64,000 nucleotides of DNA. Origin: a virus. The stretch spans positions 248,001 through 312,000 of the IMG/VR virus record IMGVR_UViG_3300049215_000771, one strand, 5' to 3'. Numbering within the stretch: the stretch's first letter is position 1; each line of letters begins with the position of its first letter. Both the position numbers and the translations under genes were made by a program. This document shows positions 30,531-57,095 of the stretch, piece after piece. The notes beneath the pieces are model-generated. The model was given only the letters and a program-made list of their open reading frames with translations. It was not told where the DNA came from and made no database searches.

Positions 30531-32731
30531 TGTCAGTAGTAAGCCAACAACAATTCGCCAAACTCGAACAACGACTCAAAGAAATCGAAGTGCGATTCGG
30601 CAACATGCTGTACGATACTCGTGGTGTTGTACAATCAGAATTGAAAGACCGAATGATTGTTCACAGTCAGTCGGAATCTCAATTTGGGTTGTACACCGCC
30701 CTGTGCATCGACACCATTGACATTTGGAAACAAAATCGCATCAGGTTTTTCTGTCCGGCCTTCCACAATCCGAAGCGTCCGATCAAGGAGATGCCCTGGG
30801 CTTACCCTGTTTCCAACATGGGTGGTTTTGACGATTGTGGTTTGACTTGGGTTCCACCTGCTGGTTCAACTGTCTGCATCTTGTTTGAAGCGGGCCAGCG
30901 GTCATCGCCGTTCTACATTGGTACGACCTGGCATCGTAACCGTGGGCCGGGCGGCAACTTGTTTGGCTTCAACATTGACGAATACTACCGAGTTTGGGCT
31001 GGGCATCGTGGCGGCTATTTGGTAGGGCCGGATGACGAATCTCAGGTTTTCCCGCCGTGGAACACAGAAAACTACAACGGATTTGATCTTTCCTCCATCG
31101 TAGATTTCTCCTCCAACCCGGAGGCACAAAAACTAATCACCTATCCAAATATCTACGGCTTCAAAACACCTGAGAAGCACATGATAAAAATGACGGATGG
31201 TGATCCCAAGTGTAATCGACGATGGAAACGATTCGAGATCATGTCCGGTTGTGGCAACTGGATCATGTTGAAAGACGACCACCTTCATTACGCCGGACAG
31301 TGGGCGCATCCACAGTGCGGCGTCAAAGATGGTGAGACTTCCTGCGTACAAGGTGCGTCCAATAGCAGCGAAACCGACATCACCAGACAGCAGGGTTTAT
31401 CTCCTGATGGAACTACTGCGCATGACGTTCCGACTACAAGCGATCCAATCTCGAAACAATTTGCCGATGTAACAAGTTCAACCTTCCAGTCGGCCCCAAA
31501 AACTGAGAATACACCGTGCCAGGGAACGCACAGCAACAGCAGTATCATTGGAGGACATCCAGCAACATCTGCTGATGATTCGCCGTATATAAACTCTCAA
31601 GCCGGCGCTAATCCATTCTTCAAACATCAAAGCGAGTGCCGACCCTATCAGGGACCGGGCACGCCCCAAAACAACAGAATCGACTTACCGCAGTCTGGCA
31701 TTCAGATTATGTCGATTTCCGGCCACACCATTGTTATGGATGATTCAGTAGAAGAACCTTCCGGCGATCCACGTTGGGAACGTGGAATACAACCATTTGA
31801 TTTCGGTTGCAACAATCACTATTCCGGGCGAACGTACTGGAAGTCTGCCACAGGCCACTGCATTGAGATGCGGGATGTAGAAGACCCTCCACACGTCCAA
31901 AACGCTATGTTGCGTGGTGAATTCAACTTCATCAGGCTGCTGACGGCGACTGGCAACAAAATCGAACTAAACGACCACACTGTAGGTGCGCCGAACTGTC
32001 CTGGCTGTCCGCCAAACGTAGCTGGAAACAAGCGTGGCATCATGCTTGCCAGCACAGCGGGTCACACCATCGAGATGCACGACGAACTAAACCAACAGTG
32101 CGGTCCTTGTCGCATGGAAGGTGGCGTACCTGCTCCGATGGCGAACCCAGGAAACGCTTATGTGAGGATTAGGACGGGGTACGGACTGGAGATGATGTAT
32201 CACGACGACAACCGCCAAGACAAAACAGTTCAACAATACATTCAGATTTTCTGTCCGCAGAAAGACAACAAGGTTCGTGGGCCGCACATCATGAGGTTCC
32301 AGGAAGCACCATCTGGACCTGGATTGATTTTCTTGAGGGCTGGCGGAAACTACATCATCATGACCTACGATAACATGATTGAAATCGTAGGAGACATCAA
32401 GAAAAATCCTTCCGACAAGATCGAAATCATCAGCAAATTGAAGCTGGTGTACACCAAGGACTTCTATGTGAACGTAACTGAGAAGTCGCATGTATTTGTG
32501 GCGAAGAATGACATTCTCCTGTTGGCCGGATGTGATTGTTCATCACCGCAGTTCAACGAAATATGCGGTAGCAGTTGCGGCCCATGCGTTGGACCTGTGT
32601 TGGTTTATGTTGGCGGTTGCATCAGGTTGAGCGACCGCATATATGGTTCTTCTTCACTCAGCGCAACACCAGCTAACATCTTCATGTTGGAACCGCTGGT
32701 CAAGTGTCCGCAGGGTGGGGGCTGCGGCTAA
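30530..32731 (+). CDS. Baseplate central spike (gp5/VgrG-like), 733 aa
   Basis: After a short N-terminal helix, an OB-fold-like domain carries RIRFFCPAFHNP, MPWAYPVSNMGG and GSTVCILFEAGQRSSPFYIG (about 65-140), the standard gp5/VgrG N-terminal signature. The rest is beta-rich with repeated IMS/IEM strands such as GHTIVMDDSVE, GHCIEMRDVED, NKIELNDHT and GHTIEMHDE, as in a triple-stranded beta-helix that pierces the envelope. No lysozyme insert is present. The C-terminus is Cys-rich (CDCSS, CGSSCGPC) and may bind a tip metal. PPWNTENYNG near residue 175 recurs in the 135-aa protein at 38677. Confidence 0.8.
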   Translation: MSVVSQQQFAKLEQRLKEIEVRFGNMLYDTRGVVQSELKDRMIVHSQSESQFGLYTALCIDTIDIWKQNRIRFFCPAFHNPKRPIKEMPWAYPVSNMGGFDDCGLTWVPPAGSTVCILFEAGQRSSPFYIGTTWHRNRGPGGNLFGFNIDEYYRVWAGHRGGYLVGPDDESQVFPPWNTENYNGFDLSSIVDFSSNPEAQKLITYPNIYGFKTPEKHMIKMTDGDPKCNRRWKRFEIMSGCGNWIMLKDDHLHYAGQWAHPQCGVKDGETSCVQGASNSSETDITRQQGLSPDGTTAHDVPTTSDPISKQFADVTSSTFQSAPKTENTPCQGTHSNSSIIGGHPATSADDSPYINSQAGANPFFKHQSECRPYQGPGTPQNNRIDLPQSGIQIMSISGHTIVMDDSVEEPSGDPRWERGIQPFDFGCNNHYSGRTYWKSATGHCIEMRDVEDPPHVQNAMLRGEFNFIRLLTATGNKIELNDHTVGAPNCPGCPPNVAGNKRGIMLASTAGHTIEMHDELNQQCGPCRMEGGVPAPMANPGNAYVRIRTGYGLEMMYHDDNRQDKTVQQYIQIFCPQKDNKVRGPHIMRFQEAPSGPGLIFLRAGGNYIIMTYDNMIEIVGDIKKNPSDKIEIISKLKLVYTKDFYVNVTEKSHVFVAKNDILLLAGCDCSSPQFNEICGSSCGPCVGPVLVYVGGCIRLSDRIYGSSSLSATPANIFMLEPLVKCPQGGGCG

Positions 32732-32743
32732 TGGAGGTAACTG

Positions 32744-33166
32744 ATGCCTAAATTTCTCGGCGTACCTTACCCAATAATGCCGAATGCCCTGGGTTTCATG
32801 CACGCACAAGGCGGCGTTAGACAGATCAAAGCCGATTTGTTGCAATTGTTGCTAACGAATCCGGGCGAGAGAGTATTTTTGCCGACATTTGGTACTCCTT
32901 TAAGGAAGTTGCTGTTTGAACCAAACGACCCGACCATTGCGGCCACGGCGAGGACGATGATTATAAACTCCGTCAAAGCGTGGGAACCAAGGATCGCAGT
33001 ACAAAGCATCACAGTAACAAACTCAGGAATCGACACGGAGTTGAATCCTGCCGACACAAAAACAGAGTTTCAGGCCATCCTGAGCATCAACATCGTGTTT
33101 GTAGACCCGGATCAGATCAGCGATGTGCAATCACTGAGCCTAGAAATACCACTCGCTGGAGGATAA
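32744..33166 (+). CDS. Baseplate wedge gp25-like protein, 140 aa
   Basis: gp25/gpW lysozyme-like fold: IKADLLQLLLTNPGERVFLP then TFGTPLRKLLFEP (about 27-59), with the EPR-type motif WEPRI (about 83) that locks the wedge to the sheath. Length is typical of the family. It precedes the gp6/J-like gene with no gap. Confidence 0.88.
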   Translation: MPKFLGVPYPIMPNALGFMHAQGGVRQIKADLLQLLLTNPGERVFLPTFGTPLRKLLFEPNDPTIAATARTMIINSVKAWEPRIAVQSITVTNSGIDTELNPADTKTEFQAILSINIVFVDPDQISDVQSLSLEIPLAGG

Positions 33167-34744
33167 ATGGCAATTACCAACGGCTGCCCATTTGACATTG
33201 CACCATATGCACAATCGCAGGTCGTAAGTAGCCCAAACATCTTCAACCTGAACTACACCAACCAGGACTTCTGGTCGATGAAGACACGTTTGATCGACTT
33301 CATTCGGCAAAAGTTCACCACGGAGTTCTCGGACTTTGTTGAAGGTTCTTTGGCCATCATGTTGATCGAGAATTGGGCATTCCTGGCGGATACCCTTTCC
33401 TTCAAAATCGACCAAATCGCTAATGAAATCTTCATCGACACAGTAACAGAAATAGACAATGGTTTCAGGCTTTCTAAACTGGTTGGCTTCCAGCCACAAC
33501 CCCCGATTGCAGCTTCCTCCATGTGGACCGCTACGATCAATAACCCGATCCTAACAGACCTGACAATCCCTGCGCCACTCGACATCAAAACACAATCGGG
33601 CACAACAAGCATCACTATTGAGTTGTACCCAGCCGATCAGAACAACAATCCAATTTTCGATCAAGACATCATCATCCCGGCTGGAAACATTGTAAACGCC
33701 GCCATTGTTGGACTTGAGGGGCGAACCCGCACCCAAACAGTAACCAGCACAGGTGTTGTTGGACAAACTATCCAGTTGAACTACTTCCCTGTCATTTTCG
33801 ACTCGGTGTTGGTGGATGTAGATGGGGTACGCTGGACCCAGGTTGAATTCTTCACTGACTCGCAGCCTCGCCGGGAATTTAGAGTTGAGTTTGACGCCAC
33901 TTACACAGCCTATGTCATTTTTGGAGACAACACGGCTGGTTTGCTGCCTTCCAACGGTTCGCAAATTGTTGTGACCTATCGTCAGGGTGGCGGAACCATC
34001 GGCAACATCGTGACTGGCTCAGTGCAGACACAGACCATTGTGGATGTGCCTGGGCTGGGATATGCCGTACCCGTCAATTTCACCAATTACACCGCTGGCA
34101 CCAATGGCTACGACGGCGACACGCTGGATGACATTCGACACAAACTACCGGCCTGGACCACGACTCAGCTTCGGTGTGTCACTGGACTTGACTACAAGAA
34201 CACAGCAGACCTGTTTGCCACTCCCTACAACGGATTGATTGGAAAATCCACGGCGGTACTGAGGAATGCTGGATGCGCAGGAAACATCATTGACCTGTAC
34301 GTTCTTGCCGTAGCTGGGACTACGCAATCCTTGTCAACAACAGCCCTGGCCCCGGCATCGAATGAATTGAAAACGGCCCTGCAAGAATATCTGGCCGGTT
34401 TGCAAATGTTCACAGACTACGTTTGTATTCGAGATGGATTCGTGGTGACAGTTGACGTAACAATTGACGTGGTTTTGAACAAGTTCTACCAGAAGTTCCA
34501 GGATCAGATCAACGCACAGATACAACAAAAATTGACCCAATTCTTCTCGTTGAGCAATTGGGATTACGGGCAGACCTTGCAAGACAAAGACATCATCATG
34601 CTGCTTTCCAGCATCTCGGAGGTAAGCAGCTACGAAATCTCGTTCACGACGAACGATCCAAACAATGGCGGAACAACCGTTGTGACGGATTTCAACCAGA
34701 TTATCGTGCCTGATGTTGTGACAATTGCTTTTTCCTACGAGTAA
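33167..34744 (+). CDS. Baseplate wedge protein J/gp6-like, 525 aa
   Basis: The N-terminus FWSMKTRLIDFIRQKFTTEF...MLIENWAFLADTLSFKIDQI is the diagnostic J/gp6 start (helix that reaches the neighbouring wedge). It is followed by a beta domain and a GYDGDTLDDIRHKLP motif (about 306) seen in Baseplate_J proteins. SD GGAGG lies before the ATG. It directly follows the gp25-like gene, as in P2, Mu and T4-type baseplates. Confidence 0.85.
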   Translation: MAITNGCPFDIAPYAQSQVVSSPNIFNLNYTNQDFWSMKTRLIDFIRQKFTTEFSDFVEGSLAIMLIENWAFLADTLSFKIDQIANEIFIDTVTEIDNGFRLSKLVGFQPQPPIAASSMWTATINNPILTDLTIPAPLDIKTQSGTTSITIELYPADQNNNPIFDQDIIIPAGNIVNAAIVGLEGRTRTQTVTSTGVVGQTIQLNYFPVIFDSVLVDVDGVRWTQVEFFTDSQPRREFRVEFDATYTAYVIFGDNTAGLLPSNGSQIVVTYRQGGGTIGNIVTGSVQTQTIVDVPGLGYAVPVNFTNYTAGTNGYDGDTLDDIRHKLPAWTTTQLRCVTGLDYKNTADLFATPYNGLIGKSTAVLRNAGCAGNIIDLYVLAVAGTTQSLSTTALAPASNELKTALQEYLAGLQMFTDYVCIRDGFVVTVDVTIDVVLNKFYQKFQDQINAQIQQKLTQFFSLSNWDYGQTLQDKDIIMLLSSISEVSSYEISFTTNDPNNGGTTVVTDFNQIIVPDVVTIAFSYE

Positions 34745-34747
34745 AAT

Positions 34748-37700
34748 ATGGCAACAGTAGCGCCCGATCAAAACCCTCAAGTATTAGACACGGTTCTGTT
34801 CAACCTGCCGACGCCGGATGCCAATGGCTGCTTCCTGGCTGATCCATACATGGTGAACAGCGTTGTGGTCTATTTCGTTGAGAGAGATTTCGCTGATCTG
34901 AATGAAAACCAATATGACAATATCATTCAGGATGACGCCGCCAGTGCTGCCGCTGACGCAGCCGAGGCCGTGGCCTGCGCCAATCCGACTGCCGCCAACA
35001 TTCAACAAGCAAAAACACTTCGGTCACAAGCCAACAGTTTGGCATTCACAAGCCCATTCTACTACAACGATGCCAACCCTGTCACTGTTGTAGGCAATGC
35101 TGATTATCCTGCCTGGCTTACCACAGATCAAAGCAACGCCTTCATCACGCACACTGGCACCGGGCAGTTTCAATATGCCTGGAACAGTTATGGAATGCGT
35201 GAAGGCGACTACTTTGTTTGTTGGACCTGGACGCCCAACCCTGCCGGCGACACCATCTCCAACAGTTTCAAGTTCAATCTGGCTGGCAATTCAGTAGTAA
35301 CAACCAGCATTCCGACGCACTACACACAGCCGGACAAGTATTACACTCTACTGACAACCTACCTGCCGGAAACGTACAAAACACTGATTACTGACACCGA
35401 CCGAACACCAGATGTATTGGACAGGTTCAACCAGGCCGTAGCCCTTGGTTTTACTGCTGTAGAAAACCTAGCCAATCAGATTGTAGACCTTCAGGACGCC
35501 AACAGTACGGCAGAAGCATTCTTGCCCCTTCTGGCCCGTTACTTTGGCATTACCCTGAAAACACAAGACCCAGCACTGTGGAGGCGTCAGATCAAGCAAG
35601 CCATCCCATTGTTCAAGAAGAAGGGAACGATTGGAGGCTTGCAGGAGGCATTGGCTCAGGCTGGAATCAGGATGGCGAAAGTAACCAGGTTGTGGCAGAT
35701 TATTTCTTCATACACTTGGCAGGACGCTTTCACCTATGACGGAACCAATGACACCTGGGAACTTTCCAAGACGCCAGTGATGCCTATTGATCCAACCAAC
35801 TATGCTGTTTACTTGAGGCCAGAAGGACAACCTTCTTACATGCAATTGGGAACAGATTATGTTTCCTTTGGAACTGACATGGACGGCAACCCAACAGTAA
35901 CCTGGGCTGGCAGCGGCCTGATGATCGACCCTATTGACCTTGTTGCTGGCGACATCGTAAAGGTGTTGTATGTTTACAAGTCAGTGCCGGATAGCCCACA
36001 CCAGACCATTGAGAATTATGTGCGCAGCCTGCCATTGGCTGACCAGCGTGACGAAACAAAACAACAATACCCACTAAAAAACTGGAACGTGCGACTCATC
36101 GAGGAGGACGACCCGTTGTTCAATGTGGTCATTCCCGACAAGTTTCCATTCATGGACCCGCTGATCTACGGCAAGGTGCGCACTGAATTCCCGTACTCCG
36201 AGAATGCCTACAACGCCGATGAATACAACGGCAGCATCAGGAATTCCTACAATCCCTGCGACATCGACAAGGACTTCCTCGATCCATGTACGGCCTGCCT
36301 GGGAAGCAAGTTCAATATCGACCTGGAGATCGAGAACTTGTCCAACAATCGCATTCTGGAGGCCCAGGACGTGATATTGGAATTCGTGCCGTTCCACGCC
36401 CAGCTTCAGACCATGAACTTCACTGGCGGGATAACTGAATTTATAACGCCTCCCCTGGAAGAAATTGAGGTTTTGGTGAGTGTTTCGGGCGGTGATTTTG
36501 TGCTTTGCGGCGAGGGACAGATGTGGTTCAACCGTGCCATGAAGGGCGGCTTAACCACCCATATCATCGACCGCTCCATGTTGGCATCGTCGGACATCCC
36601 AATATCAAATCAGGCCGGCACAGCCTACAACGATTACATTACCATCTGGAGTTCCAGTGTTTTGTTCGACAACATAGCCATGTCCACAGATGGTTCGGCT
36701 TTATTGGAAGTTTTTGCACCATCACCAAATGCCGGAACCTACAACCTGAGCAACCCGTCCCGCAACACAGCAGTTGTAACTGGTGCTACGGAACCACTGA
36801 ACACTTCAGCATTTACGTTCAGGCTATCGAACGTCTTGACTTCAGGTACGCTGTGTAACATCTATCAGAACAACTCGGTGACGTTGCTTGATGCGAACAA
36901 TCCGTTCCCTAGTGTTTTGTCCTTGTTTGACGTGACATATAACGGGGCGACGGGACCATATACAGTTTTGATTCCTGCTTACAGCGCCACACATTATCAG
37001 GTGAACAGTGTTTTCCCGGACGGCTCCTTGGAGTTGTTGGATCACGGAGAAACGCTGCCAACATCCAATGTAACCAACGTGGCTTATACCTTGTACGATG
37101 AGAACGGAGCGGTGGTAAGCAGCAGTACGACAGGCGGGTTGACGATAGCAGTACGGGGTCGGGTGCAATCGTTGGATAGTAGCATTCAGGACATCCACAA
37201 CATGATTCGTGGCACCTGTTATGTTGTTACGGGCGGCAGTCAGTATTTGATTGATGGTTTTGTCAGTCCCACTGATGACGCCGAATTCTACATCGACGGG
37301 TACGCAGGCGGGGACATGGCTGGCACGACTTTGACGATTTACCAGCGAATTGTAGACAACGAAATTGGATATTTCAGCCATCGAGGACTGGAGTTGCAGG
37401 TTTCAGGCAACCTGGAAACAACTTTGAACATACAAAATGGTGCAAATCCACCTGCTACGCCGCTAGAAAATAACGACTTCATGGAGAACTACATTGTAAC
37501 AATTAACAGCCAAGATTACTTGATTAGCATGATAAATGGCAACAGCCCACCGGGATACACGACAATTACTTTGGCCGGGCCGGACAATTACTGGAAGACG
37601 TTGGGTGCAGGAGGTACGAGCGTGAATTTCACGGTAACACACTTCACCAAGGAAACGATCACAGTTCCAGGCCAGCAGTTCGATCTACCTGCTCACACCT

Positions 37701-37879
37701 TCCCGACCTATGACCGTGGAGGCCGTGAGGTTATTGACCAGCAAACCAACAACGATCCGCCTGTAGGTGTGTCGATGGTTGGCAAGGGTGCCGGTTTGAC
37801 AGAAGTTGTCGAGCAATCGGAGGGCATTAGTTTTGAAATCGAATGGGCCGATGGCTCGAAGGATCAGGGGAATATATGA
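34748..37879 (+). CDS. Tail protein I-like/gp7-like baseplate protein, 1,043 aa
   Basis: Residues about 215-330 hold the P2 gpI-type domain: YLPETYKTL, LLARYFGI, LWRRQIKQAIPLFKKKGTIG. The protein is about five times the size of gpI; beyond the domain lie beta-rich segments with many D/G/T residues (DGTNDTWELSKTPVMP, FPDGSLELLDHGE), probably stacked beta-sandwiches extending from the wedge as T4 gp7/gp10 do. An N-terminal Ala-rich helix (about 58-97) sits before the domain. The next gene starts in ATGA overlap. Confidence 0.75.
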   Translation: MATVAPDQNPQVLDTVLFNLPTPDANGCFLADPYMVNSVVVYFVERDFADLNENQYDNIIQDDAASAAADAAEAVACANPTAANIQQAKTLRSQANSLAFTSPFYYNDANPVTVVGNADYPAWLTTDQSNAFITHTGTGQFQYAWNSYGMREGDYFVCWTWTPNPAGDTISNSFKFNLAGNSVVTTSIPTHYTQPDKYYTLLTTYLPETYKTLITDTDRTPDVLDRFNQAVALGFTAVENLANQIVDLQDANSTAEAFLPLLARYFGITLKTQDPALWRRQIKQAIPLFKKKGTIGGLQEALAQAGIRMAKVTRLWQIISSYTWQDAFTYDGTNDTWELSKTPVMPIDPTNYAVYLRPEGQPSYMQLGTDYVSFGTDMDGNPTVTWAGSGLMIDPIDLVAGDIVKVLYVYKSVPDSPHQTIENYVRSLPLADQRDETKQQYPLKNWNVRLIEEDDPLFNVVIPDKFPFMDPLIYGKVRTEFPYSENAYNADEYNGSIRNSYNPCDIDKDFLDPCTACLGSKFNIDLEIENLSNNRILEAQDVILEFVPFHAQLQTMNFTGGITEFITPPLEEIEVLVSVSGGDFVLCGEGQMWFNRAMKGGLTTHIIDRSMLASSDIPISNQAGTAYNDYITIWSSSVLFDNIAMSTDGSALLEVFAPSPNAGTYNLSNPSRNTAVVTGATEPLNTSAFTFRLSNVLTSGTLCNIYQNNSVTLLDANNPFPSVLSLFDVTYNGATGPYTVLIPAYSATHYQVNSVFPDGSLELLDHGETLPTSNVTNVAYTLYDENGAVVSSSTTGGLTIAVRGRVQSLDSSIQDIHNMIRGTCYVVTGGSQYLIDGFVSPTDDAEFYIDGYAGGDMAGTTLTIYQRIVDNEIGYFSHRGLELQVSGNLETTLNIQNGANPPATPLENNDFMENYIVTINSQDYLISMINGNSPPGYTTITLAGPDNYWKTLGAGGTSVNFTVTHFTKETITVPGQQFDLPAHTFPTYDRGGREVIDQQTNNDPPVGVSMVGKGAGLTEVVEQSEGISFEIEWADGSKDQGNI

Positions 37880-42314: not shown

Positions 42315-43367
42315 ATGGCTGTACAAAGGATTTCTTCCCTGGACCTGGGGTACTCGTCAGGTCAATTGTCGCTTTTTCCTTCAGCCTTGGACTCGGCATA
42401 TCAACTGTACAAAGCAGCCAACAACGCCGTAACCAAACTGAAGCAAACGATGACGTACAACGCAAAATACATCGTCGTTGAAGATACAACAGGCTTCCCG
42501 CCGAACGGCCTCATCAGAATCGGCCCACCACCCGGCCAACCGGGAAATTCCGAACTGATCTATTACGATCAGGTCACAACGGGTGTATTCCGTAATCTGA
42601 TCCGTGGTTTCGCCGGCTCCATCCAAGGCCAGTGGACTGTAGGAAGCTACGTCACCAACTCGGTGATGGCAGAACACCACAACTCCGTCAAGGATGCAGT
42701 CCTTCAGATGGAGGCCGATCTCGGTACGGAGGTTGATCCAACAGCCACGAGCCTGAATGGAATCCTGAAGTCGCAAGAAACTCGGTTCTTGTCACCCCAG
42801 GCTATCTTCAGGGCGTGGCCCCAAGCTGGTCCGCCTCCATTGCGTGTTCGTTTCCAAAACTTCAGCACCGGGCCAGTTATTCGATCCCTTTGGGATTTTG
42901 GTGATGGAACAACTTCTGTCGAGAAGTCGCCCATTCATACCTACTTAGCCGATGGTGTGTATACCGTCAGCTTAAACATCATTACTTTGCTTGGAGCGCA
43001 AGGGATCGTAACGAAAACAAACTACATAACCGTAGACCCAGGAGACAGACAACCTTTCTTCTATGTTACGCCTCAAACTGGTCTATCCGCTGCTACTGCG
43101 GCCAAGTTGAACGTACAACCAACAACATTCCAGTTTGTCGATCAAACAGATGGCGACATCTCCCAGCGCTACTGGATTTTCGACGGCAACGGAAAAATCA
43201 ATGGCGTAGAAGTAGCGAACCAAAGCCTCCCTGAAAACGATCCAAACATACACACGGCAACCTACGTTTATGACCTGCCTGGCAGCTACACCCCTTCGTT
43301 GTTGGTTTTGTTTGCCAACCAGGAGCTAAAAAGAGCCTACTTGTCAAGTACAATCACGGTGCAGTAA
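42315..43367 (+). CDS. Fibre-like protein with PKD domain, copy 1, 350 aa
   Basis: N-terminal module (about 25-155) ends in SVMAEHHNSVKDAVLQMEAD, which is shared with the next two genes. A PKD domain (about 190-245) has SLWDFGDGTTSVEKSPIHTY then GVYTVSLNI. A second PKD-like fold (about 255-345) has YWIFDGNG and GSYTPSLLVL. Virion display or adhesion is inferred. Stop and next start overlap as TAATG. Confidence 0.75.
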   Translation: MAVQRISSLDLGYSSGQLSLFPSALDSAYQLYKAANNAVTKLKQTMTYNAKYIVVEDTTGFPPNGLIRIGPPPGQPGNSELIYYDQVTTGVFRNLIRGFAGSIQGQWTVGSYVTNSVMAEHHNSVKDAVLQMEADLGTEVDPTATSLNGILKSQETRFLSPQAIFRAWPQAGPPPLRVRFQNFSTGPVIRSLWDFGDGTTSVEKSPIHTYLADGVYTVSLNIITLLGAQGIVTKTNYITVDPGDRQPFFYVTPQTGLSAATAAKLNVQPTTFQFVDQTDGDISQRYWIFDGNGKINGVEVANQSLPENDPNIHTATYVYDLPGSYTPSLLVLFANQELKRAYLSSTITVQ

Positions 43368-45628
43368 TGACAATCCCAAATGGAAGCAACTATCCAGCGG
43401 CATTGGACACAGACGACAATATGTTCCTTGTCCATGACTCGCTTCGTGTAACCCTTGCGCAAGATTACAACCCTGGCGACACATCCATTACTGTTTCCGG
43501 TGACTTGGAAACTATGTCCAGATTTCCGCCCACCGGCCTCATTACCCTTACCGAACAATGCAGCGACCCCAAACTACGGGCTATTTCTTTCTACTACAAA
43601 GCAACCGACAATCTTTCTACGTTTAGCGGCCTGGAATTGCTGGAAGGTTTCACGGATAATCCAAAACCTGCCCTTATCACAGACGTAACCCAAAACGTCA
43701 TGGATAAACATCACAACAGCATCAAAGATGCTGTAATAGCCATCCAGCAGTTCGCCGGCAAGAAAGGTGAAGTTGGCACTATTCCACTTGAAGGAACAAT
43801 GGAAGCCAGGATCAATTATCTGCGCAACCTCGTGCTGATTCCCAAGGCGTGGATGTCCGCCAACACAACAATCGGGCTGGTTCCATTCACTGTTGAGTTT
43901 ACCGACCAATCTTTCCGACTAGGAACGGATGGAACCTCCCATTCCATCACCCGAACCTGGGACTTCGGTGATAACAACGGACCATCGGAAATTACCATCT
44001 CGCAGACGGCCACTGGCCTCCCCTGCCCGTCACCAGACATTACGCCACCTGAAACGATCTCTCACACCTACACAACGCCCGGAATCTACGATGTGACGCT
44101 GACGATAACCAACGACTTCGGCTCAGATACAGTCGTATTTCCCAGCCTCATTAACGCCCGTGTGCCTGCTCCTGATTTTGCTGTGATAAATTTCACGCCA
44201 AGGTCGGGACAGATTTTCACGCCAGGCAGCCCAATTGGTGGGCCGTATATAACAACGCCAATCATTCGATCCCCTACCAACACCATCATCACACTCGACG
44301 TGCCACAGGGCATCAACGGAAACACAGGCGAGTCTTATGCTGGAGAAACATTGGATGGGGCTGGACATCCTATCGACCCGATTACAGCCTACACCTGGTC
44401 GCTGGCTGATGATTTGCAGCACAACAACTCCATGATGGCTAATGCCTCCTACAGCGTGGGCGGATTGTACGATCTAATCCTGCGTGTAGACACGGAATTC
44501 GGCGCATATCGCATCACAAAGTACCCGGCAGCCCTGGACATCGTTGAACGAGACAACTTATGGTTCTGGAGTTTCAGCAACATTCAGCAAGTGTACAGTT
44601 TTGAGTTTGGATTGTTCTCTGAGACGTTCAAAAACCGCTCTCAGGCAGCCCTGAACGTCAATTATAACGATTCCTTCCTGTCAGGAGCCGTCAACAGTGC
44701 CCAGCAGCTTCGGGAATTCCATCGCAACAATGGCTTCGCTCAACGTGGGTCTATCCAGTCTGGATTGGGCGGAACGGGTCTTTTGTATTGGGCGAGCGGC
44801 AGAAACGCCACAGATAGCCCCGCTTTGGAAACTATTCAGTTCAGCGAGTTCAACGGTTTCGCTGATACCTACACTGCTCGCTCCCCCATCAACCGCCCGT
44901 GGAATTGGGTGTCACTGGTATCGCAAAGCAAGATTTACTTTCTGCTAGGCGGGGTAACAACCCCTTCTTTGCCAAATACCTCGCCGACAAATCAGCGGCA
45001 AGACGCCCTCCTGCTATCGAACCTCAGCGTAGCTTCTGTCTCCTTTGGTAATTCAAACTACAAAAACGGAGCCAACGAGTTGATGCAGAACGAGGTAACT
45101 TACGACATCAGCGGCAATCCACTCCAGGGAAACATGAGCGTGTACAGGTCATGTTGGAAAGATAGCGCCGGCTATTTCCTTCGGAATGAAGGTACTGGTG
45201 CGTTCTTCAGGATGGCCGCTTTCTACAAAACAAACGGGAACACAACCGAGCCGTTCCAGTTTCTCTACAAACTGCCAGATATGGCAGGACCGGCAAAAGT
45301 GGAAGGTCAACTGGTAACACTGAGCCAAGGGGTGTTCTTCTTCAATAACTCCGGGTCGGTGTCGGCATACAACCCTACATCGGCAGTATGGGAAGTCGGT
45401 GGCCCTGGTGCAAACTCGGCGGCGTTTCGCTCCTTCCAGGATACGAATGTGCTTGATTTCGACGATCCAGCGAACACACTGCTGGCAACGTCTGACAACC
45501 AACAAGTAGCATATTTGAGCTACGACTACAGCACCAATGCTTTCATCAAATTCAATGCTGCGGACTTGACATTCAGCAGCGTGGTTGCGAGGCCAAGCGG
45601 GACGCAATGGCAGATGACAATCTTCTGA
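43367..45628 (+). CDS. Fibre-like protein with PKD domain and C-terminal beta-propeller-like region, copy 2, 753 aa
   Basis: The N-terminal module again ends MDKHHNSIKDAVIAIQQFAG (about 110). PKD follows: RTWDFGDNN, then SHTYTTPGIYDVTLTITND (about 225-245). A third domain has ITAYTWSLADD...GGLYDLILRVDTEFGAY. From about 400 a new region carries repeated aromatic-Gly strands (QSKIYFLLGG, TVAYLSYDY), suggesting a propeller-like receptor-binding part. It may bind host glycans. Confidence 0.72.
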   Translation: MTIPNGSNYPAALDTDDNMFLVHDSLRVTLAQDYNPGDTSITVSGDLETMSRFPPTGLITLTEQCSDPKLRAISFYYKATDNLSTFSGLELLEGFTDNPKPALITDVTQNVMDKHHNSIKDAVIAIQQFAGKKGEVGTIPLEGTMEARINYLRNLVLIPKAWMSANTTIGLVPFTVEFTDQSFRLGTDGTSHSITRTWDFGDNNGPSEITISQTATGLPCPSPDITPPETISHTYTTPGIYDVTLTITNDFGSDTVVFPSLINARVPAPDFAVINFTPRSGQIFTPGSPIGGPYITTPIIRSPTNTIITLDVPQGINGNTGESYAGETLDGAGHPIDPITAYTWSLADDLQHNNSMMANASYSVGGLYDLILRVDTEFGAYRITKYPAALDIVERDNLWFWSFSNIQQVYSFEFGLFSETFKNRSQAALNVNYNDSFLSGAVNSAQQLREFHRNNGFAQRGSIQSGLGGTGLLYWASGRNATDSPALETIQFSEFNGFADTYTARSPINRPWNWVSLVSQSKIYFLLGGVTTPSLPNTSPTNQRQDALLLSNLSVASVSFGNSNYKNGANELMQNEVTYDISGNPLQGNMSVYRSCWKDSAGYFLRNEGTGAFFRMAAFYKTNGNTTEPFQFLYKLPDMAGPAKVEGQLVTLSQGVFFFNNSGSVSAYNPTSAVWEVGGPGANSAAFRSFQDTNVLDFDDPANTLLATSDNQQVAYLSYDYSTNAFIKFNAADLTFSSVVARPSGTQWQMTIF

Positions 45629-45648: not shown

Positions 45649-48600
45649 ATGGCTAATGGCTTTCCTCCAGTTCCGGTTTACCCTGCGGGGTACGATAGTG
45701 ACAAAACTCTGTATTTGGTTTACAACACAGCAGAAACAGTCACCACCCGTGATAATGCGCCCTGGTCTGAATTCATTCACATCAAACCAGTTGATTCCGA
45801 TGCAGATGAAATTTGGGCCAGCAATGGCTTCGCCAATATCGAAGGCGAACTGTTCTACTACGACGCCGTAGGTTACGACGAATTTGGCAAAGTAAACGTC
45901 CTGAAGCGATGCGCCAGGAACCTGGGCGGCTCGCACACTGTATGGAACCCGCAAGGCTCCGACGTTCGTGGTTTCGTCATTGCCGAACACCACAACCAAC
46001 TCGTGGAGGCCATTCTAAACACCCAGGGCTTCATTGGCTACAACTTCACGAATGACTGCTCCACACTTGACTGGAGGATTCGCCATCTCCAGGCTTTGCC
46101 GATCATCGACGATGATTCCAACTGCCCCACAATCGTTCTTGATGTACAAGTCATTAGCCAAGACCCAGCCCAGGGCACCGTCATCCAGTATGCCATTCTC
46201 ATCAATGGCCCATACACTGGATTCCGCCTGGATTTCGGTGACGGAGATTTTACAACCACAGCTACCAACGGATACCACCAATACGCCGCCAATGCGACCA
46301 TCGACCCAATCGTAACCATCGTCAACTCCAACTGCTCGGTAGTAACTTCGCCAATTCAGCGTACTATCGCCACTGAACCTGCGGTCGGGTCTGCTTTGAC
46401 GCCATTTGAAGTTACAATCCCAACGATACCTTCACTACCCCCAATTATTTTCCCGAACGTAATTCCACCATCGAACGCTTTCAACCTGCCGCCAATTGTG
46501 TTCCCGTGCTTGAACATTGGACCTATTGGCCCAATCAACATACCTTCTATCATCACTGTTGAACCACCGATCAACATACCTTCGGAGATTTTCATCACGC
46601 CGGTCACAATCCCGACCGAGATCACGATCACCCCAATCACGATCCCGACCGAGGTTGTCATCACCCCGATCACGATCCCAACACACATAACGATCTCGCC
46701 GGTTACGATCCCGACGCTGATTACTATCACGCCGGTTACGATCAGCCCAATTGACATTCCGACGTTAATCGTCATCACGCCGGTCAGCATCCCGACCGAA
46801 ATCGTCATCACGCCGGTCAGCATCCCGACCGAAATCGTCATCACGCCGGTCAGCATCCCGACATTGATTACGATTACGCCGGTCAACATCCCGAACGTCA
46901 TTACGATCACTCCGATCACAATCCCGAACATCAGGATCACACCGATCTCGATCCCGAACATCACGATCTCGCCGGTCAGCATCCCGACCGTTATCACGAT
47001 CACGCCGGTAACGATCCCGACTCAGATCACGTTCGGGCCAGTGACGATTCCGACTGCGATCACAATTACACCAGTGACGATTCCGACTGCAATCACAATT
47101 ACACCAGTCACAATCCCGACGACAATTACCATCACGCCGGTCAATATCCCGACGAACATTACCATTACGCCGGTCAATATCCCGACACAGATCACGTTCG
47201 GGCCAGTAACGATCCCGACACAGATCACGTTCGGGCCAGTAACGATCCCGACACAGATCACGTTCGGGCCAGTGACGATCCCGACTCAGATCACGATCAC
47301 TCCGATCACGATCCCGAACATCAGGATCACGCCGATCTCGATCCCGAACATCACGATCTCGCCGGTCAGCATCCCGACAACAATCACCATTACGCCGGTC
47401 AACATCCCGACAGTGATAACGATCACGCCGTTCCCGTGCAAAATTCCATCGCAGATCACGATCACTCCGGTCACGATCCCGACGAACATCACTATTACAC
47501 CAATTTCGATACCGAACATCAACATTTCACCGATTTCGATACCGACAAAGATCACAATTACACCAGTCACGATCCCGACGACAATTACCATCACGCCGGT
47601 CAATATCCCGACGAACATCACCATCACGCCGGTTGATATTCCGACGAACATCACCATCACGCCGGTCGCAATCCCGACGAACATCACGATTACGCCGGTC
47701 AACATCCCGACGTTGATTACCATTACGCCGGTCAACATCCCGACAACAATCACCATTACACCAGTGACGATCCCGACTCAGATCACGTTCGGGCCAGTGA
47801 CGATCCCGACTCAGATCACGATCACTCCGATCACGATCCCGAACATCAGGATCACGCCGATCTCGATCCCGAACATCACGATCTCGCCGGTCAGCATCCC
47901 GACAACAATCACCATTACGCCGGTCAACATCCCGACAGTGATAACGATCTCGCCGGTCAACATCCCGACAAACATAACGATCTCGCCGGTTACAATACCG
48001 ACTAACATCACCATTACACCTGTCACGATACCGACGAAGATCACCATTACGCCGGTTGACATCCCGACGAACATCACGATTACGCCGGTCAACATCCCGA
48101 CGTTGATTACCATTACGCCGGTCAACATCCCGACTCAGATCACGTTCGGGCCAGTGACAATCCCGACTCAGATCACGTTCGGACCAGTGACGATCCCGAC
48201 TCAGATCACGATCACTCCGATCACGATCCCGAACATCAGGATCACTCCGATCACGATCCCGAACATCACGATTACGCCGGTCAACATCCCGACGTTGATT
48301 ACCATCACGCCTGCCAACATCCCGACGAACATCACCATCACGCCGGTCAACATCCCGACAAACATCACCATTACGCCGGTTACAATACCGACTAACATCA
48401 CCATTACGCCGGTTACAATACCGACGAAGATCACCATCACTCCGGTCACGATCCCGACAGTGATAACGATCACTCCGGTCACGATCCCGACAGTGATAAC
48501 GATCACTCCGGTCACGATCCCGACAGTGATAACGATCACACCAGTTGACATCCCGACTGCAATCACGATCACTCCGGTTACAATCCCGACGAACATCACC

Positions 48601-51600
48601 ATTACGCCGGTAACGATTCCGACAACGATTACGATTACTCCAGTCACGATTCCGACAAAAATCACCATTACGCCGGTCAACATCCCGACGAACATCACCA
48701 TTACGCCGGTTACAATACCGACGAACATCACTATTACGCCGGTCAACATCCCGACGTTGATTACCATTACGCCGGTCACGATCCCGACGACAATTACCAT
48801 CACGCCGGTCACGATCCCGACAACAATCACCATTACGCCGGTCAACATCCCGACGTTGATTACCATTACGCCGGTCAACATCCCGACGTTGATTACCATT
48901 ACGCCGGTCACGATCCCGACTCAGATCACGTTCGGGCCAGTAACGATCCCGACTCAGATCACGTTCGGGCCAGTGACGATTCCGACTAAGATCACGATTA
49001 CACCGATCACGATTCCGGCAATCAGGATCACGCCGATCTCGATCCCGAATATCACGATTTCACCTGTAAACATCCCGACGACAATTACCATCACGCCGGT
49101 CAACATCCCGACAGCGATCACGATCACGCCAGTTGATATTCCGACAGCGATCACGATCACGCCAGTTGATATTCCGACAGCGATCACGATCACGCCAGTC
49201 AACATCCCAACGAACATCACCATTACGCCGGTCACGATACCGACAGCGATTACCATTACGCCGGTCACGATACCGACAAAGATTACCATTACGCCGGTCA
49301 ACATCCCGACGTTGATTGCGATCACGCCGGTCAACATCCCGACAAACATCACCATCACACCAGTTACGATCCCGACACGAATCACAATCACGCCGGTCAC
49401 GATCCCAACAGCGATCACGATCACGCCGGTCACGATCCCGACGACAATTACCATCACGCCGGTCAACATCCCAACAGCAATCACGATCACGCCGGTCAAC
49501 ATCCCGACTCAGATCACGTTCGGGCCAGTGACGATCCCGACTCAGATCACGTTCGGGCCGGTTACAATTCCGACCAAGATCACGATCACTCCGGTAACGA
49601 TCCCAAACATCAGGATCACACCGATCTCGATCCCGAACATCACGATTACTCCAGTTGATATTCCGACAGCGATCACGATCACGCCGGTCAACATCCCGAC
49701 AGCGATCACCATCACTCCAGTTGATATTCCAACAGCGATCACCATCACGCCGGTCAACATCCCGACAGCGATCACCATCACGCCGGTCAACATCCCGACA
49801 GCGATCACCATCACGCCGGTCACGATCCCGACGTTGATTACCATTACCCCTGTGATAATCCCGACGTTAATTACAATTACGCCGGTCACGATACCGACAA
49901 AAATCACCATCACGCCGGTCGCAATCCCGACGAACATCACCATTACACCGATCACGATCCCGACAGCGATCACTATTACGCCGGTTGATATTCCGACAGC
50001 GATCACTATTACGCCGGTCAACATCCCGACAGCGATCACTATTACGCCGGTCAACATCCCGACAGCGATCACGATCACGCCGGTCACGATCCCAACAGCG
50101 ATCACGATCACGCCGGTCAACATCCCGACAACAATCACCATTACGCCGGTCAACATCCCGACGTTGATTACCATTACACCAATTACAATCCCAACACAAA
50201 TTACGTTCGGACCAGTGACGATCCCGACTCAAATTACGTTCGGGCCAGTGACGATTCCGACTAAGATCACGATCACACCGATCACGATTCCGGCAATCAG
50301 GATCACGCCGATCTCGATCCCAAACATCATGATCTCGCCGATCTCGATACCGACAGTGATTACGATCTCGCCGGTCAATATCCCGACAGCGATCACGATC
50401 ACTCCAGTTGATATTCCGACAGCGATCACGATCACGCCAGTTGATATTCCGACAGCGATCACGATCACGCCGGTCACGATCCCAACAGCGATTACCATTA
50501 CGCCGGTCACGATCCCGACAGCGATTACCATTACGCCGGTCACGATACCGACAGCAATCACCATTACGCCGGTCAACATCCCGACGAGTATCACGATCAC
50601 GCCGATCACGATTCCTGCAATCACGATCACGCCGATCTCAATCCCGAATATCAACATTACGCCGATCTCGATCCCAGCGATCACGATCACACCGATCTCG
50701 ATCCCAGCGATCACGATCACACCGATCTCGATCCCAGCGATCACGATCACACCGATCTCGATTCCGAATGTGAACATCACGCCGATCACGATCCCAAATG
50801 TGAACATCACACCGATCTCGATCCCGGACATTAACATCACGCCGATCACGATCCCAAATGTGAACATCACACCGATCTCGATCCCGGACATTAACATCAC
50901 GCCGATCACGATTCCTGCAATCACGATCACGCCGATCTCGATTCCAGCAATCACGATCACACCGATCTCGATTCCGAATGTGAACATCACGCCGATCTCG
51001 ATACCGGACATCAATATCACGCCGATCACGATTCCTGCAATCACGATCACGCCGATCACGATCCCGGACATCAACATCACGCCGGTCACAATCCCGGACA
51101 TCAACGTGAATTGGGGACCAGCGCCAACAGTTACCTGCACGGTAACGGTGTCGTGTCCTTCTTCGCCGTCAACGACGCCATCTATGGGGTTCCTGGCGGG
51201 TGGGGTAGCTTTGCCGAGCGACTTCCAGGATGGCTTCTCACCGATTGAGGGAACGGTAGAGACAAGTGACATTGGCATTCCAACTGAAATTCAGTTGGTT
51301 GTGCCTGAAATCCCGGACATCCGAGTGATTCACGACATCCCGGCCATGATTGAGGTTGTGGCCCCGAAGATTCCGCCGATTGAGATCACGGGCTGGCAGA
51401 ACATCCCGAAGACCATCGAGGTCATTGCCACGGACATCCCGAAGACCATCGAGGTTGTGGGAGCGCACGCTATTCCGAAGTCGATCTCGATTGAGGGGGC
51501 GTCGAACATCCCAACCGTCATCAGGCTAGAAGTGCCTGTGGACTTCCCGAAGACGATTGTGCTGGACGCCAGCGGCATCCCGGACAAGATTCAAGTTGTC

Positions 51601-51795
51601 GGCATTCCGCCAGTCATTGAATTGATTGGCAACATCCCAACGGAAATCAAACTAACGATGCCTGAGAAACCGGAAGTAGAAATGGTATACAGGGGCGCTC
51701 CTATAGAGATGAAGATCAGCCTGGACACGAGCCGGCTGACAGGCGAGGATCAAAACGCCAACTGTGTAGCGATTGTCCCGTGCAAACCGAGCTAA
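45649..51795 (+). CDS. Giant repeat fibre protein with PKD domain, copy 3, 2,048 aa
   Basis: The N-terminal module (about 1-140) ends FVIAEHHNQLVEAILNTQGF as in the two preceding genes. A PKD-like domain has YTGFRLDFGDGDFTTTATNG (about 185-205). From about residue 295 to 1820 the chain consists of roughly 140 tandem units of 10-11 residues, chiefly ITITPVTIPTx, with variants TFGPV, ISIPN and ISPV. Strict alternation of I/T with a conserved Pro pair suggests a long beta-structured stalk. A C-terminal part (about 1820-2048) has less regular IPxEI, IPKTIEV units. No chaperone domain is visible. Confidence 0.85.
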   Translation: MANGFPPVPVYPAGYDSDKTLYLVYNTAETVTTRDNAPWSEFIHIKPVDSDADEIWASNGFANIEGELFYYDAVGYDEFGKVNVLKRCARNLGGSHTVWNPQGSDVRGFVIAEHHNQLVEAILNTQGFIGYNFTNDCSTLDWRIRHLQALPIIDDDSNCPTIVLDVQVISQDPAQGTVIQYAILINGPYTGFRLDFGDGDFTTTATNGYHQYAANATIDPIVTIVNSNCSVVTSPIQRTIATEPAVGSALTPFEVTIPTIPSLPPIIFPNVIPPSNAFNLPPIVFPCLNIGPIGPINIPSIITVEPPINIPSEIFITPVTIPTEITITPITIPTEVVITPITIPTHITISPVTIPTLITITPVTISPIDIPTLIVITPVSIPTEIVITPVSIPTEIVITPVSIPTLITITPVNIPNVITITPITIPNIRITPISIPNITISPVSIPTVITITPVTIPTQITFGPVTIPTAITITPVTIPTAITITPVTIPTTITITPVNIPTNITITPVNIPTQITFGPVTIPTQITFGPVTIPTQITFGPVTIPTQITITPITIPNIRITPISIPNITISPVSIPTTITITPVNIPTVITITPFPCKIPSQITITPVTIPTNITITPISIPNINISPISIPTKITITPVTIPTTITITPVNIPTNITITPVDIPTNITITPVAIPTNITITPVNIPTLITITPVNIPTTITITPVTIPTQITFGPVTIPTQITITPITIPNIRITPISIPNITISPVSIPTTITITPVNIPTVITISPVNIPTNITISPVTIPTNITITPVTIPTKITITPVDIPTNITITPVNIPTLITITPVNIPTQITFGPVTIPTQITFGPVTIPTQITITPITIPNIRITPITIPNITITPVNIPTLITITPANIPTNITITPVNIPTNITITPVTIPTNITITPVTIPTKITITPVTIPTVITITPVTIPTVITITPVTIPTVITITPVDIPTAITITPVTIPTNITITPVTIPTTITITPVTIPTKITITPVNIPTNITITPVTIPTNITITPVNIPTLITITPVTIPTTITITPVTIPTTITITPVNIPTLITITPVNIPTLITITPVTIPTQITFGPVTIPTQITFGPVTIPTKITITPITIPAIRITPISIPNITISPVNIPTTITITPVNIPTAITITPVDIPTAITITPVDIPTAITITPVNIPTNITITPVTIPTAITITPVTIPTKITITPVNIPTLIAITPVNIPTNITITPVTIPTRITITPVTIPTAITITPVTIPTTITITPVNIPTAITITPVNIPTQITFGPVTIPTQITFGPVTIPTKITITPVTIPNIRITPISIPNITITPVDIPTAITITPVNIPTAITITPVDIPTAITITPVNIPTAITITPVNIPTAITITPVTIPTLITITPVIIPTLITITPVTIPTKITITPVAIPTNITITPITIPTAITITPVDIPTAITITPVNIPTAITITPVNIPTAITITPVTIPTAITITPVNIPTTITITPVNIPTLITITPITIPTQITFGPVTIPTQITFGPVTIPTKITITPITIPAIRITPISIPNIMISPISIPTVITISPVNIPTAITITPVDIPTAITITPVDIPTAITITPVTIPTAITITPVTIPTAITITPVTIPTAITITPVNIPTSITITPITIPAITITPISIPNINITPISIPAITITPISIPAITITPISIPAITITPISIPNVNITPITIPNVNITPISIPDINITPITIPNVNITPISIPDINITPITIPAITITPISIPAITITPISIPNVNITPISIPDINITPITIPAITITPITIPDINITPVTIPDINVNWGPAPTVTCTVTVSCPSSPSTTPSMGFLAGGVALPSDFQDGFSPIEGTVETSDIGIPTEIQLVVPEIPDIRVIHDIPAMIEVVAPKIPPIEITGWQNIPKTIEVIATDIPKTIEVVGAHAIPKSISIEGASNIPTVIRLEVPVDFPKTIVLDASGIPDKIQVVGIPPVIELIGNIPTEIKLTMPEKPEVEMVYRGAPIEMKISLDTSRLTGEDQNANCVAIVPCKPS
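46533..51112 (+). repeat. 33-bp (and 30-bp) minisatellite encoding I/T/P units
   Basis: About 140 units in 4.6 kb. The basic unit is ATCACGATCACGCCGGTCA plus ATCCCGACn. A 3-unit block with TTCGGGCCAGTGACG followed by NIRITPISIPNITISPV recurs about seven times (near 47190, 47770, 48130, 48910, 49510, 50190), giving a higher-order period of about 0.4-0.8 kb. Near 50,590 onwards 30-bp ISIPxITITP units take over. Confidence 0.9.
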
Positions 51796-51796
51796 G

Positions 51797-52663
51797 ATGA
51801 GAATCAAAAAAACCAAAGACAAAAACGAGTACCTGCTGACCAAGCAGGGTATGTGGGTTCGCAACTTCACCAAGAACCTGGTTCCGTTTGTTGATTTGAA
51901 CGAATCAGTAGACAAGAAAGATCATTTCATGCTACTGAAGAATGAAATAAACAACAATCGAGCCAGGTACACTTGGATTGACTCGGAGAAATTTTATCAC
52001 ACCAAGATGGTAATTGTTTCTGACGGATATGGATTCCAGGAGAAGCACAAACTGCTAGAGGATTTGCCCAAGGACGTGGCAATCATTGCCGTCCACGGGG
52101 CGCTCGCAAAATGGAACATCAACAGAAATCCAACCTACTACGTTGTCAACAACCCATATGAATTGTGCATGATGTACTTGCCACGCCGTCTGAGAAGTTT
52201 GCCAAAATGTATAGCTTCAACCAGAACAAATTACGAGTTCCTTGCTAACTACCGTGGCACCAGGTATCGGTACTTTCCTGTGAGTGGAAAGAATTATGCA
52301 GGGTCAAAAACCAGCGAAGCCCAATGGCAAATTGATGATTATCGCAATCCGATTTGTGCCGCCATAGGGCTTGCCTACCGCTTTGGGGTGGACAGGTTAG
52401 CGCTGCTGTGTTGCGATGATGTATTCAAAGATGAAAGGGTAGGATCGGAACAAATACACAACGGCATGTGGATTTACCCGCCTCAGTTGACGGCCCACGG
52501 GCTAATTGACGGTTGTTTGTACTGGCTAAGAAACACGCCATATCGAGATATGAAAGTTGTAGATCACAGTTCTGGCCCACTTTACGAGAATGCTGTGTAT
52601 ATAGAGAAGGACAATCTAGTGTCTTTCCTACAGGATGGAGTGTCTGATGACAAAAAGGAATGA
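51797..52663 (+). CDS. DUF115/MAF-like glycosyltransferase-fold protein, 288 aa
   Basis: ATG 2 nt after the upstream stop. MVIVSDGYGFQEKHKLLEDL then VAIIAVHGALAKW and NPTYYVVNNPYELCM follow the layout of DUF115/motility-accessory-factor proteins (SNPSL.. then PDYYVxxD), which act in flagellin or surface glycosylation. In a phage beside fibre genes it may glycosylate the I/T-rich fibre; that is inference. It ends in overlap with the next small gene. Confidence 0.58.
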   Translation: MRIKKTKDKNEYLLTKQGMWVRNFTKNLVPFVDLNESVDKKDHFMLLKNEINNNRARYTWIDSEKFYHTKMVIVSDGYGFQEKHKLLEDLPKDVAIIAVHGALAKWNINRNPTYYVVNNPYELCMMYLPRRLRSLPKCIASTRTNYEFLANYRGTRYRYFPVSGKNYAGSKTSEAQWQIDDYRNPICAAIGLAYRFGVDRLALLCCDDVFKDERVGSEQIHNGMWIYPPQLTAHGLIDGCLYWLRNTPYRDMKVVDHSSGPLYENAVYIEKDNLVSFLQDGVSDDKKE

Positions 52664-56090: not shown

Positions 56091-57095
56091 ATGCCAATCG
56101 GATTTGACTGTGGAACGTACAACTTAGTCGCTTGCACCAGGGATGACAAAGGAAACTTCGTCCACAAGCGAGAAGTAAATGCTTTCCTCGAACTCCCGCT
56201 GGAGAATCGCTTTGTATTCAACATGATGAAGAATGCGGGCGTGCCCTTGATTGAAAGGGAGAAAGTCGGCTATGCCTTGGGCGAGGCGGCTGTCAACATG
56301 GCCTACACAATGAGCCAGTTGGAACTTAAAAGGCCCATGACGGCGGGATGCGTCAACCCGAAAGAAAGAGACGCTTTTCAGATTTTGTCCATCATGATTC
56401 ACAGCTTGCTGGACGATGTTAGGAAGGATGGAGAAGTGTTGTACTACTCCGTCCCAGCCAATGCCATCAATGAGGAGACAGATGCAGACTACCACGCCAA
56501 AATCCTTGAAGCCATCTTCAAAGCCTACAAATCCGACAAAGGGTACAAAGTTGACCCACGCCCGATCAATGAAGGTTTGGCCTTGGTGTATGCGGAACTC
56601 GGCAAGAAAGCATTCACTGGTATCGGCGTTTCCTTCGGCGCTGGTATGGTAAACCTATGCTATGCAATGTACGGCAATCCAGTTTTCCAGTTCTCGATTG
56701 TGAATTCTGGCGACTGGATCGACAAGCAAGCAGCGAAGGCAACCGGCGAATCGGTTTCCTTCATCAACAAGCAGAAGACAAAGATCGACCTGACCAAACA
56801 ACCGACAACCCTTGTGGATCGGGCTATATGCACACAATATAACCTGATGATTGAGAAAACAGTTCAGGAGATCAAGAAGGGACTCACCAATGCTTCAAAG
56901 GTCGTTCACTCGGACGCCCCTGTAGACATTGTTATCGCTGGTGGTACATCGTCGCCATATGGTTTTGCGTCGGTGTTCAAGGATACCATCAAAGTAGCCA
57001 ATCTGCCTATTCAGGTTGGCGAAGTCGTTAAGCCAACGGACCCGCTATACAGCGTGGCTCGTGGCTGTTTGATTGCTGCGGAAGCAGCGAAGTAA
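56091..57095 (+). CDS. Actin/Hsp70-fold ATPase (ParM/MreB-like), 334 aa
   Basis: Phosphate-1 GFDCGTYNLVACT (Asp6), connect-1 region PINEGLALVYAEL (about 158-170), phosphate-2 GIGVSFGAGMVNL (about 178-189), adenosine motif VIAGGTSSPYG (about 281-291). This order defines the actin/Hsp70/sugar-kinase fold. The phosphate-2 Asp seen in actin and MreB is Ser181. Function may be DNA segregation, positioning of phage DNA in the cell, or filament formation; a phage-encoded actin homologue has precedent (AlpC). Confidence 0.8.
   Translation: MPIGFDCGTYNLVACTRDDKGNFVHKREVNAFLELPLENRFVFNMMKNAGVPLIEREKVGYALGEAAVNMAYTMSQLELKRPMTAGCVNPKERDAFQILSIMIHSLLDDVRKDGEVLYYSVPANAINEETDADYHAKILEAIFKAYKSDKGYKVDPRPINEGLALVYAELGKKAFTGIGVSFGAGMVNLCYAMYGNPVFQFSIVNSGDWIDKQAAKATGESVSFINKQKTKIDLTKQPTTLVDRAICTQYNLMIEKTVQEIKKGLTNASKVVHSDAPVDIVIAGGTSSPYGFASVFKDTIKVANLPIQVGEVVKPTDPLYSVARGCLIAAEAAK

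Follow-up and report, generated by a model that had tools for sequence, protein, structure and literature searches.

The virus record IMGVR_UViG_3300049215_000771 is 532,729 bp long, and the 64,000 nucleotides analysed here, positions 248001-312000 of the record, are called the window. It contains a single uninterrupted open reading frame (ORF) at 45649-51795 (+) for a protein of 2,048 aa, the middle of which is built from 139 head-to-tail units rich in Ile, Thr and Pro. We believe, with a probability of roughly 0.6, that this protein is a tail or baseplate fibre of a huge myophage-like phage, with conserved ends and an elongated, beta-structured and probably oligomeric repeat shaft between them. 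It is read as a fibre because its N-terminus is homologous to adjacent PKD paralogues with baseplate wedge matches, close to genes of the base_V, gpJ, gpI and gp25 types. A preliminary description, made from the letters of the window, had also suggested a stalk or fibre, and the baseplate gene cluster and the N-terminal domain common to the two upstream baseplate-type paralogues speak for it.

The tandem array

The array lies at 46582-51096 (+) and spans 4,515 bp, or 1,505 residues (aa 312-1816). By our parsing, 106 of the units are 11 aa long (TxITITPVTIP), 31 are 10 aa long (xITITPISIP) and two are irregular (13 and 16 aa); Tandem Repeats Finder detects the array with periods of 30, 33, 66 and 99. 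The preliminary description, which put the array at 46533-51112 with some 140 units and some 1,500 residues, was correct to within a few units, and of its 10-11-residue unit ITITPVTIPT the longer form stands, but the basic unit is not a 10-mer. Counted from 0, the consensus of the 11-mer is T-x-I-T-I-T-P-V-[T/N]-I-P, in which Pro 6 and Ile 9 (137/137 each) and Pro 10 (136/137) are near-invariant and variation is greatest at position 1 (N, A, Q, L, T, K, V). The C-terminal end of the array is a run of 16 consecutive 10-residue units (50617-51096, +).

The 106 11-mers make up 84 distinct sequences in DNA and only 38 in protein. Most of the variation from unit to unit sits at third codon positions, and over all pairs of 11-mers the proportion of synonymous differences (pS 0.54) is 3.4 times that of nonsynonymous ones (pN 0.16; pN/pS 0.29). 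Neighbouring units resemble each other slightly more (0.80) than distant ones do (0.73), and a higher-order block of 53 aa around IRITPISIPNITISPVSIP is present in seven copies, the first at 46861-47019 (+), which is evidence of block duplication. The IRITP of this block (from IRITPISIP) is found at irregular intervals, at 46930, 47320, 47845, 48235, 49021, 49609 and 50296, and two of the copies differ at only 1 of 159 nt. The most recent block duplication is seen as a 171-bp exact direct repeat (47254-47424 and 47779-47949, +), the longest exact repeat in the array, with its copies offset by 525 bp. The silent divergence between units and the recurring blocks show that the array is not the result of fresh slippage; it is old, it is kept by selection on the protein and it grows by block duplication. 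The signal of a solenoid with three units per turn, a period of three in the unit-level autocorrelation, was absent; the IRITP blocks are spaced by 12, 16, 12, 24, 18 and 21 units, and the five of these six that are multiples of three are too few to weigh.

Fixed ends and a variable middle

The conserved N-terminal domain (aa 1-296; 45649-46536, +) is of a baseplate-anchor type, as judged from alignments and paralogue homology, and has the motifs DSDxTL, WAxNGF and VIAEHHNQ as well as a degenerate PKD-like stretch (FGDG), the PKD matches being weak. Three paralogues stand in a row behind the baseplate genes, and the fibre gene is the last. The first of them (42315-43367, +; 350 aa) matches Pfam PKD and the baseplate wedge family phrog_2885, and is related to the fibre N-terminus with a BLASTP E value of 2e-8; the second (43367-45628, +; 753 aa) has a PKD domain, and its N-terminal domain matches the fibre at E=3e-5. 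Two fibre orthologues also have PHROG baseplate wedge matches. The baseplate cluster that precedes the fibre consists of a base_V-type spike (30530-32731), a gp25-like wedge protein (32744-33166), a gpJ-like wedge protein (33167-34744) and Tail_P2_I/gpI (34748-37879). At the other end of the fibre, the conserved C-terminal region (aa 1817-2048; 51097-51792, +) has degenerate IPxxIxL repeats followed by PEKPEVEMVYRGAPI and, at the very end, CVAIVPC.

Searches with the whole protein and with the N-terminal domain gave as relatives LR756511.1, an uncultured phage of 595,163 bp, and 80 IMG/VR contigs, several of them longer than 200 kb and many of them fragments. Alignments show that both ends of the fibre are conserved among these relatives. 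The orthologues form a family with the N-terminal anchor domain directly after the two PKD paralogues, which stand upstream in nearly all loci, and with a C-terminal CVxIVPC, which is lost or replaced in contig L056 and was not found in the record of L060. The middle, in contrast to the ends, ranges over the 80 loci with the N-terminal domain from no detectable array to the array of the window, counted here as 1,504 repeat residues, which is the longest one read. Members of 592-621 aa mostly have no or almost no detectable array, and the arrays of other members have periods of 9-14 residues with units such as PTLINFGPVNI, PTEIKITPVSF, PTSITFGPAPTI, ASFNWGKAPKVEG, SFDCISFCHPP and PPVNITPVNI. 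Because degenerate IPSxIxIxPP stretches persist in the members that lack an array, the arrays seem to have expanded from an ancestral unit. The mean identity of units is 0.72 within an array against 0.39 between arrays, and the latter has a weak and non-significant correlation with the identity of the N-terminal domains (rho 0.16, p 0.13). This points to concerted evolution of the units inside each array, and the comparison of relatives also shows that the turnover of units alters the length and the surface of the putative shaft.

Some members deviate more. At the place of the array L060 has RCC1 propeller repeats (Pfam E = 1.6e-111), and this orthologue (L060:7871-11872), which has further repeated segments inserted there as well, has an open frame of 3,049 aa in its record. 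In L056 (7901-10972) unrelated domains rich in Cys and Pro, with repeats of the Cys-rich ones and (PSPTP)n linkers, replace the array, and the C-terminus differs. The array of L072 (8000-10288) is 35% Pro (PPVNITPVNI, PPITIPPISPINI) and stops at the end of a 381-kb contig. LR756511.1 has a short array (L005:11100-11500) with two Cys in each 11-residue unit SFDCISFCHPP, which are possibly cross-linked or metal-bound.

The preliminary description had expected that the repeats would recombine easily and that the length would vary even between virions. Between close phages this is not what we see, since L080 and L082 (87% DNA identity) code for proteins of 1,227 and 1,229 aa with arrays that differ only by 1-residue indels, and L006 and L009 (94%) have no array indels across 200 shared residues. 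Indels of one to several units first appear at about 80% protein identity (L053/L054, L077/L080), which suggests that the array length is stable over short time scales and labile over longer ones. Of the 80 contigs, 29 end inside the fibre ORF, a count that excludes L060 and L067, whose ORFs by their listed ranges do not stop at contig ends. The density of contig ends is 0.28 per kb after the N-terminal domain, compared with 0.013 upstream and 0.029 downstream, and 16 of the 29 ends are an exact copy (30-104 bp) of an earlier sequence in the same locus. Because contigs break in this ORF, members with long arrays are under-represented among the relatives. No near-identical DNA was found in the phage collection searched. 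The bacterial genomes searched held one relative only, on a contig of a metagenome-assembled genome that itself ends in an array, and it therefore gives no host assignment.

The proposed shaft and competing explanations

The conserved N-terminal domain would, judging from homology, dock the fibre to the baseplate in the same way as in the two upstream paralogues, and the conserved C-terminal region may be a tip or a domain for assembly and registration. The 139 units in between would make an elongated beta-structured shaft, intertwined or stacked in an oligomer, where each unit turns its Ile and Val side chains inward and Thr, Asn and Ser outward, and two prolines make the turns. The position of the tip and the function of the rod, to carry the C-terminal region outward with a reach set by the shaft, are suggested by analogy only. 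Such a shaft would evolve by duplication and loss of blocks of units, homogenised inside each array, and related phages would thus keep the ends and have other shaft lengths and unit sequences, or folded domains instead. That the array forms a beta-structured rod is likely, that the rod is an oligomer we would put at even odds, and by analogy with known phage fibres the oligomer would be a trimer.

The composition of the array (I 29%, T 27%, P 19%, V 8%, charged 2.5%, Gly 0.9%) places it well on the folded side in the charge-hydropathy analysis of Uversky (H 0.60 against a boundary of 0.41). Across the 19 loci that have 11-mers, with the units written from a Pro, positions 4, 6, 9 and 11 are hydrophobic in 92, 93, 71 and 96% and positions 2, 5 and 10 in 0, 11 and 10%; the parsing rule partly dictates positions 1-6 but not 7-11. 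A beta rod needs just such an alternation of hydrophobic and polar residues, broken by prolines. Beta structure had been proposed in the preliminary description too, and composition and alternation favour it, but AlphaFold2 models of the single chain leave the fold unproven. If beta-structured, the shaft would be about 65-130 nm long: about 67 nm if every unit adds one strand (0.48 nm), and about 130 nm with the rise of the adenovirus shaft. The 0.054 nm per residue of T4 gp34 (1,289 aa in 700 Å; PMC3004832) gives about 82 nm, and a stalk of hundreds of nanometres, as first envisaged, is reached only with a fully extended chain (about 500 nm).

Several points weigh against a beta-structured fibre shaft. 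The AlphaFold2 models are of low confidence, with a mean predicted local distance difference test score (pLDDT) of 45.9 and a predicted template modelling score (pTM) of 0.21 for 20 units with the C-terminus, and 52.9 and 0.38 for 24 units. The latter model shows one 4-residue strand (xITI) per unit, and at this confidence it is not evidence for any given fold. Foldseek searches of PDB and BFVD gave no significant structural relative; the PDB matches of the 24-unit model were mostly hexapeptide-helix proteins, with E values of 1.9 or more and a template modelling score of about 0.1. Nothing significant was found with phmmer and hmmsearch in PDB with the array and the C-terminal, N-terminal and MptE-like profiles. 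The presence of the predicted protein in the virion and its oligomeric state are argued from sequence and by analogy. Finally, the C-terminus is conserved and the middle varies, which is the opposite of many fibres that have a variable C-terminal receptor-binding tip.

The long tail-fibre shafts gp34 and gp37 of T4 are likewise attached to the baseplate of a contractile-tailed phage and have an N-terminal anchor, an elongated repeat shaft and a conserved end. We found no sequence relation to them, however, and the seven quasi-repeats of gp34 with globular beads (PMC3004832) are unlike the 139 short uniform units of the window, for which a trimer is proposed by analogy. The triple-stranded beta-helix needle of T4 gp5 is also a rod of regular short repeats with inward hydrophobics, with the 8-residue repeat VxGxxxxx (PMC4576200). 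A beta-helix of that type is ruled out on sequence by the unit of 10/11 residues, the two Pro and the 0.9% Gly. In the adenovirus triple beta-spiral, short tandem repeats of 15 residues have conserved turn residues (Gly/Pro) at fixed positions and their copy number sets the fibre length, but the period of 10/11, the different motif and the lack of any PDB sequence match rule it out on sequence, and it belongs to an animal virus. Collagen-like repeats in phage structural proteins are Pro-rich and vary in copy number as well; there is no Gly-X-Y in the array, and 13 Gly in 1,505 residues exclude them; the preliminary description, too, had preferred a beta-structured filament to collagen. On sequence, the left-handed hexapeptide helix and the solenoid of insect antifreeze type, which has a 12-residue coil with Cys, do not agree with a 10/11-residue period and one Cys in 1,505 residues.

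The low confidence of the models could also mean that the array is no ordered rod, and instead a flexible, largely unfolded and polyproline-like tether with a reach of up to about 500 nm. The 19% Pro in the array and the 35% in that of L072 speak for it, but 29% Ile, 8% Val and 2.5% charged residues put the array well past the charge-hydropathy boundary on its folded side, and the strict alternation is under purifying selection. Prediction from a single chain is moreover expected to fail for an oligomer of intertwined chains, and adenovirus shaft peptides in isolation likewise miss their native fold (PMC8869412). We therefore regard a tether as unlikely. We give a similarly low weight to the idea that the array itself is the interaction surface, where flat, outward ladders of Thr, Asn and Ser would bind a host-surface polymer (capsule, sheath, S-layer or something chitin-like) and unit turnover would shift the specificity. 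The middle could have this role because it varies while the C-terminus is conserved; among the relatives it is the only part that varies, RCC1 propellers, which serve for binding in other proteins, can take its place, and position 1 is the most variable of the unit. The near-identical units inside one array are however better suited to a structural element.

The beta-structured shaft must also be set against two explanations that we find far less probable. A mucin-like stalk, O-glycosylated and decorated by the products of the sugar genes downstream, an idea close to the O-glycosylation sites and sugar genes that the preliminary description pointed out, would fit the 30% Thr+Ser of the array and the MptE-like gene directly 3' of the fibre (51773-52663, +; Pfam PF01973) and the GT9-like gene, but the MptE-like match is under the Pfam cut-off and the presence of the two genes does not track the array. 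Where the flank of a relative is long enough to judge, the MptE-like gene comes after the fibre in 8/8 cases with an array and in 21/21 with a short array or none; for GT9 the figures are 4/8 and 16/21, and it is missing near several long arrays (L046, L053). The two genes thus belong to the neighbourhood and not to the array, and we reject the link; the arrays of L072, L009 and L023 have only 13-17% Thr+Ser, which makes the glycosylated stalk still more improbable. An assembly artefact or an unselected satellite expansion is hardly credible and already largely refuted. Tandem arrays are error-prone and the 171-bp exact repeat is longer than a short read, so that 47254/47779 is one place where units could be miscounted. 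The assembly is nevertheless credible since 98% of the 127-mers in the array are unique and only 2.1% are found more than once; the units differ mainly at silent sites, and many contigs have arrays of this grammar independently of one another.

Neighbouring genes and meaning of the fibre family

Just ahead of the baseplate genes, at the position of a tail tape measure, an ORF of 4,553 aa (14499-28160, +) has no significant Pfam or PHROG match. Its first approximately 3,200 residues are rich in Ala, Lys and Leu, with an 87-aa repeat at 22029-22985, and the next 1,000 or so are rich in Pro, Ala, Thr and Gln, with the 15-residue repeat TRPPRTVLPPVERDA at 26998-27610. Were all of this protein helical, the tail would be expected to measure several hundred nm. 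The product of another ORF (56091-57095, +) is 54-85% identical in many relatives and surpasses its neighbours in conservation; in L001 the relative resembles an actin/ParM-like ATPase, judged by eye.

LR756511.1 (595 kb), with its orthologue built on another unit, presumably belongs to the huge phages of Al-Shayeb et al. 2020. That paper reports proteins of up to 7,694 aa, some of them tentatively structural, and repeat regions that break assemblies, and its main text names no tail fibre (PMC7162821). The fibre family is described neither there nor in the other literature searched, and literature searches aimed at this fibre found no description of it. Phage fibres with repeat shafts are already known, and what is new is this unit and a family with fixed ends and a hypervariable middle. 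We tentatively suggest, as a possibility well short of even, that the 10/11-residue unit [I/F]P[ST]xIx[I/F]xP, whose many variants (period 9-14) are spread over dozens of phage contigs, adopts a fibrous beta fold that the Protein Data Bank does not yet contain; the rod would be modular, with duplication of units resetting its length and surface. Should the fold prove new, protein design would gain from this unit a simple rod that can be tuned genetically.

The fibre protein is covered by no Pfam family and by few PHROGs, and the family of fibres that it defines occurs in some of the largest phages known. Since 29 of the 80 contigs stop within the array, metagenomes built from short reads systematically cut this gene short and give too low a count of long shafts. 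The variable part is confined to a tandem-repeat shaft, or to swapped binding domains, between fixed ends, and how the length and sequence of the shaft matter for contact with the host can therefore be tested by comparison.

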